From the IMG/VR virus record IMGVR_UViG_3300025098_000052, positions 1 through 56,035 of that record: a stretch of DNA of 56,035 nt. One strand, written 5' to 3'. This DNA is from a virus. Below are positions 16,861 to 23,634 of this stretch, one piece after another (the stretch's first letter is position 1; each line of letters opens with the position of its first letter). A program made the translations under genes and the position numbers. Under the pieces are notes generated by a model. It searched no databases. It saw nothing but the letters and a program-made list of their open reading frames with translations, and was not told where the DNA came from.

Positions 16861-16890
16861 AGTATAACATTAATGTTTTTACAGTGTCAA
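16861..16890 (-). promoter_or_regulatory. leftward sigma-70-like promoter with internal operator
   Basis: On the - strand a perfect TTGACA (-35, 16885-16890), an 18-bp spacer and TATACT (-10, 16861-16866). The spacer contains the palindrome ACATTAATGT, so a bound regulator would sit between the two promoter boxes. Expected transcript start is near 16854, serving the leftward gene at 16688 and the late unit. Confidence 0.65.
16867..16876. promoter_or_regulatory. operator candidate ACATTAATGT, copy 1
   Basis: Perfect 10-bp palindrome, extended to AACATTAATGTT. It lies in the spacer of the leftward promoter at 16861-16890. Confidence 0.55.
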
Positions 16891-16918
16891 TAGAAATACA
16901 GATAATTATTACTACTTT

Positions 16919-16940
16919 CTTATCGTTACTAGTATAGGGG
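16919..16940. repeat. 22-bp element, copy 1 (inverted relative to 21057)
   Basis: A 22-bp sequence that reads CCCCTATACTAG...GATAAG on the - strand and is repeated exactly on the + strand at 21057-21078. In both places it points toward the genes transcribed next to it. It contains a TATACT word that could be a -10 box. Confidence 0.75.
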
Positions 16941-16959
16941 AGTAGATACTCTATGTATT

Positions 16960-16969
16960 ACATTAATGT
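16960..16969. promoter_or_regulatory. operator candidate ACATTAATGT, copy 2
   Basis: Perfect palindrome 93 bp from copy 1, just upstream (for leftward transcription) of the 22-bp element. Confidence 0.5.
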
Positions 16970-17007
16970 TTAGATGACTTATGTTCAACTACTCTTATAT
17001 TGTTTTA

Positions 17008-17017
17008 ACATTAATGT
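17008..17017. promoter_or_regulatory. operator candidate ACATTAATGT, copy 3
   Basis: Perfect palindrome, extended to AACATTAATGTT, 48 bp from copy 2 and 25 bp downstream of the -10 box of the second leftward promoter. Confidence 0.5.
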
Positions 17018-17041
17018 TTAACATACCCCCTTACCCCCATA

Positions 17042-17069
17042 GTTATAGTCACAGTCAAGGGTCTGTCAA
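17042..17069 (-). promoter_or_regulatory. second leftward sigma-70-like promoter
   Basis: TTGACA (17064-17069), 16-bp spacer, TATAAC (17042-17047) on the - strand. A transcript from here would cross operator copies 1-3 before reaching the first leftward gene, giving a long leader of about 345 nt. Confidence 0.5.
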
Positions 17070-17335
17070 CATATTACGTTACGTCACATTAAATATGTTT
17101 TACATATAGTGTCTTTAACTAAGGATAGTGGTTAATCAGGTGCAAAAAACCTCGTGTGTGTAACTGTACATATACGTATAACGTAGGTTGGTGGGGTGGC
17201 CCATGCCCGTACCCTTTAGCAATCTTGTTAAGTCATTGAAATTACTACATATTTATTAATGGTTAGCTCAAAAGAAATATTTTATTCTAGTTTTAGCCAT
17301 ATAAAACACTAGTAAAGCATTGTTATTGCTGCATT

Positions 17336-17366
17336 TTGCTACTGATATACTTTCACTGGTTATAAT
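17336..17366 (+). promoter_or_regulatory. rightward promoter candidate with operator at the start site
   Basis: Perfect TATAAT (-10) at 17361-17366 with a weak TTGCTA 19 bp upstream. The palindrome GTGATCAC begins at the very next base, covering the expected transcript start, which is a classic repression position. Confidence 0.45.
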
Positions 17367-17374
17367 GTGATCAC
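17367..17374. promoter_or_regulatory. operator candidate GTGATCAC, copy 1
   Basis: Palindrome in the context ATGTGATCACGAAA, directly after TATAAT. Copies 2 and 3 follow 30 and 76 bp to the right. Confidence 0.6.
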
Positions 17375-17396
17375 GAAAAAGCATACCCCTATGGAT

Positions 17397-17404
17397 GTGA
17401 TCAC
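17397..17404. promoter_or_regulatory. operator candidate GTGATCAC, copy 2
   Basis: Same ATGTGATCACGAAA context as copy 1, with a similar CCCTAT/CCTAT word nearby, as if a 30-bp unit had been duplicated. Confidence 0.55.
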
Positions 17405-17442
17405 GAAATACACCTATACGATGCACATACACACATCACAAT

Positions 17443-17450
17443 GTGATCAC
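17443..17450. promoter_or_regulatory. operator candidate GTGATCAC, copy 3
   Basis: Context ATGTGATCACAAAT, 46 bp after copy 2. Confidence 0.55.
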
Positions 17451-17611
17451 AAATACCAACGCACATTCTGCAATGCAGCAAAACGAATCAGTGCAGTGCA
17501 GCATTTGTTATTATGCAGGTGCAGCATTTCCAGGTGTTGCAATTATGTCACACCGCCAGGTTCCTTATTTATATAGCAATTATGCAAAAATAGCCGTCAA
17601 AAAATTAACTG

Positions 17612-17639
17612 TTTACATTCTCAATGTTCGGGTTGTAAG
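17612..17639 (+). promoter_or_regulatory. rightward early promoter candidate
   Basis: TTTACA (17612-17617), 16-bp spacer, TGTAAG (17634-17639). The -10 box is imperfect. A start near 17646 would give a leader of about 27 nt before the first early gene. Confidence 0.35.
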
Positions 17640-17672
17640 ATGATTGCATCAACTCAACAGGAGATTTACCCA

Positions 17673-17945: not shown

Positions 17946-18566
17946 ATGCAACAAGTACACATAAGTAAGATGACTGGTAAACTTGACGGTTTCAAAGCTA
18001 TCAGCACCAACACGATTACAAACGACTATTGTAACAAGCAACACGTTAAAGGCAAACAAGATGGAAAGAACATTTGTGGTGATTGTTATTCCCACGCTAT
18101 GCTCAATACGTATCGTAAAAACATGCAAGCATCGTTGCAACGTAACAGTGATTTACTAGCTAGTAGGCCACTTGAACCACAAGAAATACCACGAGTTGTT
18201 GACGCTATGTTTAGGTTCAACGCACATGGTGAACTAATCAATATGCAACACTTTGAAAATCTCATGGCTATTGTTCAAGATAATCCGTGGTGTACGTTTG
18301 CGCTATGGACTAAGCGTGTGGACATTGTGTTTAAATGGTTACGCAACAACGATAAACCTAGCAATTTACAGTTGATCTACAGTAACCCTATGAAGTCTCA
18401 CATTATGAGCAAACCACCTAAGCATTTTGATAAGACGTTCAACAACGTGTTGCAAGATGAGCACACTGACAAACAAAATTGTACTGGTCAAAAATGTAAA
18501 GATTGCAGACTATGTTACACTGTGAATAGTATCACAACTATAGTAGAAAAAGTTAAGAAGTATTAA
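17946..18566 (+). CDS. GP88-like Cys-cluster protein (206 aa)
   Basis: Resembles phage gene-product-88 proteins (first known from mycobacteriophages, function unknown). It starts HISKMTGKLDGFKAISTNTI, has an N-terminal cysteine group C29, C44, C47 (C-x2-C in NICGDCYSH), a central helical part with WTKRVDIVFKWLR, and a C-terminal cysteine group C179, C184, C187, C190. Seven such cysteines suggest a bound metal or an Fe-S cluster. The ribosome binding site is AAGGAG. An early position in the operon argues for a host-directed or regulatory role, but this is inference. Confidence 0.7.
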   Translation: MQQVHISKMTGKLDGFKAISTNTITNDYCNKQHVKGKQDGKNICGDCYSHAMLNTYRKNMQASLQRNSDLLASRPLEPQEIPRVVDAMFRFNAHGELINMQHFENLMAIVQDNPWCTFALWTKRVDIVFKWLRNNDKPSNLQLIYSNPMKSHIMSKPPKHFDKTFNNVLQDEHTDKQNCTGQKCKDCRLCYTVNSITTIVEKVKKY

Positions 18567-20833: not shown

Positions 20834-21049
20834 ATGGCTAACAATCAACTTAAAACAATTATTAAACACCTTGAGACAGTAGGTAGTATATCAACTCTAG
20901 AGGCTATCATACAGTACAGTATCATGGCGTTACCTAGACGTATCAAAGACCTTAAGGAACAAGGGTATAACCTCAACAGCATACGCAAGTCACACCCAGT
21001 GACAGGTAAACGCTACACACGTTATGTATTAGTAGAGGATGCAGCGTAA
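20834..21049 (+). CDS. winged-helix DNA-binding protein, HTH_39-like (71 aa)
   Basis: Small helix-turn-helix protein. The layout LKTIIKHLETVGSISTLEAI, then MALPRRIKDLKEQGYNL and a beta wing ending GKRYTRYVLVE is that of the HTH_39 group found in many phages. It is the best candidate in the window for a protein that binds the palindromes of the control region, though targets cannot be told from sequence. It lies directly before copy 2 of the 22-bp element. Confidence 0.75.
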   Translation: MANNQLKTIIKHLETVGSISTLEAIIQYSIMALPRRIKDLKEQGYNLNSIRKSHPVTGKRYTRYVLVEDAA

Positions 21050-22462: not shown

Positions 22463-22723
22463 ATGATGAAGTTGACCCAAAAGATGACCCACACGATGAC
22501 ATTACTGACAGTCTTGGGAATCTATCTAAAGAGAATACTGACAGCAATGAGCGTCCTGATGAACGTGATACTAGGAGGACAAAACAATCAGACGTTCAGC
22601 GCAAGGAATCACCAGTGGCAGAGAGAGGGAAAGCCTAACGTAGTTTATTTCATTGACATGCTTATCGGCAAAGGTCATTGTGTAGAAGCGTGGGTATATT
22701 GGAAAGTGAGGAGAAAATGGTAG
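22463..22723 (+). CDS. conserved small protein with NQTFSARN motif (86 aa)
   Basis: The C-terminal half (NNQTFSARNHQWQREGKPN, then FIDMLIGKGHCVEAWVYW and a basic end) is a block that I recognise from marine podoviruses, so this frame and not the overlapping one at 22453 is probably real. The N-terminal part has a hydrophobic helix (LLTVLGIYLKRILTAMSVLM) and may be a membrane anchor. The start may instead be the ATG at 22496. Its stop overlaps the recombinase start. Confidence 0.6.
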   Translation: MMKLTQKMTHTMTLLTVLGIYLKRILTAMSVLMNVILGGQNNQTFSARNHQWQREGKPNVVYFIDMLIGKGHCVEAWVYWKVRRKW

Positions 22724-23634
22724 ACATACCTAAACATACATCGAAGCTATCAGCTATTGTAGACTTCTATCTGCACAGTAGTAACTTCTGTAGTCTAAGT
22801 CCTAAGTCACAGAAAGACTATGAGACACACTTGGAAGTAATACTAAAGACTAACGTAGAAGGTAGGCTCTTAGGTAACTACACAGTGCGTAGCATCAAAG
22901 CTAGACACACTAACCTGGCTTACGAGAAGTGGCTTGTGTCTGGTGTACGTACTGCTAACTATCGTAAGGCTATCTTATCTGCTGCATGGAAGTACAGCTT
23001 GAGGTTAGACGTGATGGATAATGACCCAGTACGTTTGATCAAGACGAAGAGCACTAAGCCACGCAAGGTCAAGTGGACTCGTGACCAAGTGTTACTGTTT
23101 CTTGATACAGCATACGGTAACTTCAGGTGGCGCAGCATTGGGTTGATTGTACATATGGCATACGAGTGGGCGCAGCGTGTAGGAGACATGCGTACCTTGA
23201 CTTGGGATAACATTAACTTCAGCGCACAACGTGTTGATTTAACACAAAGTAAACGTGGTGCTGATGTGCACCTACCTATACCTGATGATCTACTATCTAT
23301 GCTTAGACAACAGAGCCAGGACTTTGGATTCCAGAACTACGTAGCACCTAAGACTACACCAGTAGCAGGGGCATATGTACCTTACGCAATTGATCACATC
23401 GATGATGCAATCAACGAAGTCAAGGAAGCTGCAGGACTACCAAAGAAACTAACAGCTATGGATCTACGCAGGACTGCAATCACTGAGATGGTAGAGGCAG
23501 GTGTTGAGACTCTTGAGTTGATGCAAGTGACAGGTCACAGGAATCCTGAGTCAGTCAAGCCATACTTAGTCAACACATTTAGTGGCGCAAGCAATGCGTT
23601 AAACAAAAGGAGGAGCAAGGATGATCAACATTAA
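22717..23634 (+). CDS. int: tyrosine recombinase / integrase-like (305 aa)
   Basis: Site-specific recombinase family. An N-terminal SAM-like core-binding domain (about 8-115) precedes the catalytic domain: box I R154 (EWAQRVGDMRTLTW), box II AMDLRRTAITEM with R251, then H274 (VTGHRNP) and the nucleophile candidate Y283 (KPYLVN). The usual box II histidine of H-x2-R is methionine (M248). The ATG at 22717 is used because GAGGAG lies just before it; an upstream ATG at 22678 is less likely. It could integrate the phage, resolve DNA forms, or be a relic. No attachment site could be identified. Confidence 0.85.
   Translation: MVDIPKHTSKLSAIVDFYLHSSNFCSLSPKSQKDYETHLEVILKTNVEGRLLGNYTVRSIKARHTNLAYEKWLVSGVRTANYRKAILSAAWKYSLRLDVMDNDPVRLIKTKSTKPRKVKWTRDQVLLFLDTAYGNFRWRSIGLIVHMAYEWAQRVGDMRTLTWDNINFSAQRVDLTQSKRGADVHLPIPDDLLSMLRQQSQDFGFQNYVAPKTTPVAGAYVPYAIDHIDDAINEVKEAAGLPKKLTAMDLRRTAITEMVEAGVETLELMQVTGHRNPESVKPYLVNTFSGASNALNKRRSKDDQH

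Follow-up and report, generated by a model that had tools for sequence, protein, structure and literature searches.

The junction and its phage

Which proteins, of the phage or of its host, read the two sets of palindromes that lie between the divergent early and late genes of a marine phage? The question is raised by the virus record IMGVR_UViG_3300025098_000052, whose 56,035 bases are the window analysed here. A sequence-only reading of this DNA had described two unrelated triple operator sets, one for each direction of transcription, and had likened them to the two-regulator switch of lambda OL/OR, but without a recognisable repressor gene.

The terminase of the window phage shares 90% identity with the terminases of Roseobacter phages CRP-603 and CRP-2, and 73% with its counterpart in Puniceispirillum phage HMO-2011, and on these identities we assign the phage to the HMO-2011-type roseophages. 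Besides TerL homology, the window has divergent gene blocks and a PolA with the DnaJ-like CXXCXGXG motif, a trait of HMO-2011-type phages (PMC6918029). The host of the contig was inferred from these relatives. The early gene block runs rightward from about 17.6 to 35.3 kb. The late genes are oriented leftward, one run starting from 16.7 kb and another from 38.8 kb downward. The early and late blocks diverge from a non-coding junction of about 950 bases, inside which both palindrome sets lie (Table 1). We found no mention of a repressor or a promoter in the literature searched on HMO-2011-type phages.

Table 1. Features in and around the early/late junction, in window coordinates.
Feature	Position	Strand	Remark
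First late gene, 87 aa	16431..16694	-	conserved marker of the late side of the junction
Long hairpin in the late 5' leader, CU-rich loop	16719..16816	-	folding in about 20 relatives
Late promoter P2, TTGACA-18-TATACT, extended -10 (TG)	16861..16890	-	11 of 12 consensus matches
Late operator a, ACATTAATGT	16867..16876	.	within the P2 -35/-10 spacer
Late operator b, ACATTAATGT	16960..16969	.	between the two leftward promoters; also in L006
Late operator c, ACATTAATGT	17008..17017	.	about +18 to +27 of P1; kept in L006 and CRP-2, degenerate in CRP-603
Promoter-like P1, TTGACA-16-TATAAC (CRP-2: TTGACA-16-TATAAT)	17042..17069	-	read from sequence
TATAAT, candidate -10, abutting early operator 1	17361..17366	+
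Early operator 1, GTGATCAC; extended ATGTGATCACGAA	17367..17374	.	exact match; same place in L004, L006 and CRP-603
Early operator 2, GTGATCAC	17397..17404	.	30 bp after operator 1
Early operator 3, GTGATCAC; ATGTGATCACAAAT	17443..17450	.	46 bp after operator 2
First early ORF, 77 aa	17640..17873	+	no family match
Early gene matching Pfam GP88	17946..18566	+
HTH_39 winged-helix protein	20834-21049
Tyrosine integrase	22678-23634

Two palindromes confined to the junction

Both palindromes have exactly three copies in the whole window, all of them in the junction, ACATTAATGT on the late side and GTGATCAC on the early side. The rest of the 56,035 bases holds no further copy, even when one mismatch is allowed for ACATTAATGT. 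No other palindrome of 8 or 10 bases in the window has three identical copies inside 300 bp, apart from the 8-mer CATTAATG, which is the core of the 10-mer ACATTAATGT. When the whole window was dinucleotide-shuffled 100 times, a three-copy cluster of this sort was never seen for any 10-base palindrome (0 of 100), and was seen twice for any 8-base palindrome.

The earlier description of the locus was thus borne out in its layout: there are two different triple sets of unrelated sequence, one on each side of the divergent junction, and a genome-wide count leaves no copies outside it. Both sets are also kept in relatives, the late one in a close subclade only. One ACATTAATGT had been placed inside the spacer of a near-consensus leftward promoter, and it is indeed there, between TTGACA and TATACT on the minus strand with an 18-base spacer. 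The first GTGATCAC does immediately follow a TATAAT, as had been noted, although this hexamer is not conserved and L006 reads TTATGGT at its place.

Between the two sets, at 17145-17214, lies a block of the form CTCGTGTGTGTA..TGTACATATACGTATAACGTA..GGCCC.TGCCC, one of the best conserved parts of the junction.

The late-side set and the leftward promoters

A four-way alignment of the window, L006, CRP-603 and CRP-2 showed that operators a and c and both leftward promoters are conserved, with degenerate operators in CRP-603; the TGTCAA and TTATA of P1 are invariant. The position of operator a is kept in L004, L102, L006, L014 and CRP-2 and, in degenerate form, in CRP-603. Most of the HMO-2011-type phages examined have a P2-like promoter some 170-230 bases upstream of their first late gene. 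The ACATTAATGT operator was found only in a close subclade (L004, L102, L006, L014, L106, CRP-2 and CRP-603). A viral scan with a 17-base late-side word gave 40 scattered matches, few of them in the HMO-2011-type group; the late set is therefore not widespread. These data suggest that it is a separate, subclade-specific set of putative operators, placed for repression of two tandem sigma-70-type promoters. The geometry suggests that P1 would be repressed through operator c and P2 through operator a in its spacer.

We found no sign of a host reader for this set: AACATTAATGTT occurs 0-2 times in each of eight roseobacter genomes, with no notable excess over the control. The reader could be encoded by the phage. 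A candidate is the HTH_39 protein, which would bind the ACATTAATGT set and repress the leftward promoters early in infection. The named phages that encode it besides the window phage (CRP-603, CRP-2 and CRP-207) are those whose late promoter region has AACATTAATGTT-like sites, either exact or degenerate, operator a lies in the spacer of P2, and the ACATTAATGT word is rare in the host genomes tried. However, L014 has the operator in P2 although its early region, over the 5.6 kb examined, encodes no HTH_39, L115, L104, L145 and L157 have HTH_39 and lack the operator, and weak AACATTAATGTT-like matches also occur in phages without HTH_39. We consider this protein a weak candidate, less likely than not to be the reader of the late set.

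Two other features of the late side are recorded here. In P1 (17042-17069) TTGAC is repeated at 11 bp, most clearly in CRP-2, in a layout resembling that of a PhoB box. Downstream, the hairpin of the late leader retains its pairing among about 20 relatives while its stem sequence is fully turned over. Its loop, UGUCUCCUCCUC, contains CCUCC, like the anti-Shine-Dalgarno of 16S rRNA, and the hairpin at 16719-16816 matches no Rfam family.

The early-side set in the window and its relatives

The distances between the three GTGATCAC sites of the window (Table 1) correspond to 2.9 and 4.4 helical turns. The sites are retained in relatives though the flanking sequence has wholly changed. Their symmetric T/A-rich flanks match those of host sites (T at -5 in about 95%, a weak comparison since the host sample was partly selected on flanks). 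In a set of 58 oriented arrays, TATAAT was overrepresented to either side, which does not separate activation from repression.

In CRP-2 (L086, 6670-6790) all GTGATCAC sites but the last are replaced, at corresponding places, by GTGCATATATGCAC-like palindromes. We read this change as an operator swap between close relatives, as expected if operators are swappable.

Other operators of similar layout occur elsewhere. In L064 a related early gene (at 2760) is preceded, some 680-745 bases upstream, by three copies of GAGTACTC at exactly 30-bp spacing, i.e., the layout of the GTGATCAC array with a different operator. Repeats of the GTTTAAYRTTAAAC form are found in the junctions of other HMO-2011-type or related phages (L093 4420-4570, which is CRP-9, and L005, L012, L100 and L148), and are possibly the operators of another regulator. 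Between the array and the first early gene (17460-17640; 7230-7420 in L085), relatives have long imperfect inverted repeats, of the form ACATTCCGGGAAT..CATATTC..CCCGGAATGTTAG in CRP-603 and CRP-2. These are possibly a structured early leader.

Phased arrays in several kinds of phages

We scanned the viral collection for two TGTGATCAC sites 27-57 bp apart. Such paired arrays were present in at least 120 viral stretches, vs 18 for a control palindrome, GTCATGAC, in the same layout (L216-L233). Since 7 of the 18 control loci had three or more copies, 18 is an upper bound on the background; in some other phages the control palindrome may well function as an operator. The phage arrays have 2-4 copies of GTGATCAC, are intergenic, and occur in several unrelated phage types. 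Among the matches listed, about 44 of the 78 array loci examined are of HMO-2011-type, and the gene content of the remainder places them in three or more further kinds. One of these kinds has Roseobacter phage CRP-6 as its nearest named relative (terminase 83%), and another has an early gene nearest to that of Roseobacter phage CRP-5 (66%); CRP-6 and CRP-5 themselves have no GTGATCAC array site. The terminase of a further array-bearing contig, L151, is nearest to an unassigned phage record and to a Pelagibacter phage (62% each).

Among the matches listed, 191 of 197 array sites fall outside ORFs of at least 90 aa. The 69 spacings left among these matches after removal of near-duplicates cluster near 31, 43 and 53 bp, 30-33 bp being the commonest. 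Their phase coherence at 10.5 bp is 0.54, a value that none of 20,000 uniform draws matched (p < 5e-5). With spacings of whole turns, bound dimers would line up on the same side of the helix, a layout suggestive of cooperative binding.

Among named phages of Rhodobacteraceae, at least two junction sites were found in CRP-603, CRP-1, CRP-345 and CRP-13, and one in CRP-2. There was no array in CRP-207, CRP-9, CRP-3, CRP-235, CRP-212, CRP-738, CRP-4, CRP-5 and CRP-6. With so many Rhodobacteraceae phages lacking the array, the sites are optional and the host alone does not predict them. Named relatives infecting other hosts lack the sites, which is the expected direction in numbers too small for a test.

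The same word in host genomes

Operators of the FadR subfamily of GntR regulators are GT-N4-AC palindromes read by a GntR/FCD dimer. GTGATCAC is reported as a motif among the binding sites of AkgR of Rhodobacter sphaeroides (PMC6365646). Paired TTGTGATCACAA sites were found at only 22 loci in 84,980 bacterial genomes, many of them in Rhodobacteraceae and Planktomarina; the pairs lie at mdh-sucC, by sdhC, or next to genes for GntR/FCD regulators. The roseobacter genomes that we read have sites between mdh and sucC and upstream of sdhC, as well as single sites directly upstream of a GntR/FCD gene beside lpd within the suc cluster, which is the usual position for autoregulation. The product of such a gene (PF00392 and PF07729) is the candidate host reader.

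Of 150 Rhodobacteraceae genomes, 127 have tandem TGTGATCAC pairs (none with the reversed control), compared with 4 of 190 genomes of Alphaproteobacteria drawn class-wide. An ortholog of the regulator was found in 135 of the 150 genomes. The tandem pair is present in 125 of these 135 vs 2 of the 15 without the ortholog (Fisher p=6e-11, uncorrected for relatedness within the family). Motif, family and genomic place suggest that the ortholog is AkgR itself. Other GntR/FCD regulators outside the Rhodobacteraceae use GTGATCAC too. The pairs differ in spacing, mostly 21 bp in hosts and 30-54 bp in phages. A literature search for the literal TTGTGATCACAA, or for TGTGATCACA with 'phage', returned nothing relevant.

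A host regulator as the probable reader of the early set

We propose, with a probability of about 0.74, that a host GntR/FCD dimer of the AkgR type reads the early set and tunes early transcription, the late set being separate. This dimer, the controller of TCA-cycle operons in Rhodobacteraceae, would bind the three early-side sites, and since its DNA binding would follow the central-carbon state of the host, it would set early transcription in the infected cell accordingly. It might either activate, AkgR being described as an activator, or repress, as the first site abuts TATAAT. The early genes of the phage would probably be wired to a metabolic regulator of the host and not to a repressor of their own. 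What the computation establishes is the sites with their conservation and phasing, their identity with the AkgR motif, the tandem sites at host TCA operons, their co-occurrence with the regulator and the lack of a phage GntR; binding to phage DNA, tuning of early transcription and metabolic sensing there are inferred. We give roughly even odds to the broader proposition that several unrelated roseophage lineages independently gained phased arrays for the TCA regulator, placed where the main early/late or terminase genes are controlled. Central carbon would then gate the phage programme, much as PhoBR serves cyanophages, but at the heart of the infection.

The main competitor is a phage repressor or activator of unrecognised fold that binds GTGATCAC, which would then be an operator of immunity or lysis timing, its match to AkgR a coincidence or convergence. 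Such a protein would suit a phage that has a tyrosine integrase (CRP-3, of another subgroup, integrates into tRNA-Met; PMC6918029), and the replacement of operators in CRP-2 resembles a turnover of immunity specificity. The gene content argues otherwise. The window encodes no GntR domain, and among the early proteins scanned no HTH family scored over the cut-off except HTH_39, which we rejected as the reader of GTGATCAC because it is absent from the array-bearing CRP-1, CRP-345 and CRP-13. CRP-603, CRP-1, CRP-345 and CRP-13 have only three early proteins in common, an exonuclease-like protein, an endonuclease and ribonucleotide reductase, and all three are also in HMO-2011, which has no array. 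By tblastn, which a small or highly diverged reader could escape, no early protein was specific to the array-bearing named phages. Arrays and integrases also come apart: CRP-1, CRP-345 and CRP-603 have both, CRP-13 has sites and no annotated integrase, and CRP-207 and CRP-3 have an integrase and no array. Moreover, the same array recurs across several different phage types. We regard a phage-encoded reader of the early set as improbable.

These results bear directly on the two regulatory claims of the sequence-only reading. It had seen no recognisable phage repressor gene, and this stands: GntR is lacking, and the one clear HTH protein is missing from other array phages. The lambda-like two-regulator switch does not, given the evidence on integrases and readers: the early set matches a host-regulator motif in a phage without GntR, the arrays are independent of integrase, and the late set is restricted to one subclade.

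It is much less probable still that the repeats are iterons read by a replication protein, the junction being a replication origin. The cumulative GC skew does reach its minimum at the junction, in a region that is A+T-rich, non-coding and repeat-bearing, but the change of coding strand explains the skew equally well. The spacing is irregular (30 and 46 bp in the window, phased but variable elsewhere), unlike that of regular iterons, GTGATCAC marks metabolic promoters in hosts, and relatives without the sites have kept the replication genes. Finally, that the palindromes are chance words of an A+T-rich non-coding region can be dismissed because they are conserved: three GTGATCAC anywhere in the window are not very rare (8 of 100 whole-window shuffles), but the clustering, the conserved positions, the recurrence in at least 120 contigs and the helical phasing all contradict it.

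Meaning and comparison with known systems

If a host AkgR-type regulator does read the early set, the growth state of an abundant group of ocean bacteria would be linked to phage expression through a named host protein, and this would explain how a phage without a recognisable repressor tunes its early region. Phased GTGATCAC arrays may also help, as a sequence mark, in linking uncultured viral contigs from the sea with Rhodobacteraceae.

Lambda OL/OR with CI and Cro shares with this junction the triple palindromic operators beside divergent promoters and the likely cooperative binding. Here, however, the operators of the two sides are unrelated, no CI- or Cro-like gene was recognised, the reader of the early set is probably the host's, and there is no tie to the presence of an integrase. 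The operators of FadR-subfamily GntR regulators have the same GT-N4-AC palindrome; the phage array and its wide spread in roseophage-like viruses set the present case apart. The AkgR regulon of R. sphaeroides and other Rhodobacteraceae has the palindrome GTGATCAC itself (PMC6365646), and likewise multiple sites on one helical face in intergenic regions upstream of operons. It differs in that host pairs are mostly two turns apart, whereas the phage arrays of 2-4 sites are mostly spaced by 3-5 turns.

Cyanophages, which make use of the PhoBR system of their host, offer the closest precedent, and gel shifts have shown that host PhoB binds to their promoters (PMC10976474). There a marine phage drives its genes through a nutrient regulator of its host, and the phage described here is predicted to do likewise. 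The Pho boxes serve particular genes under phosphate limitation, whereas the GTGATCAC array would place the main early/late junction under the influence of central carbon.
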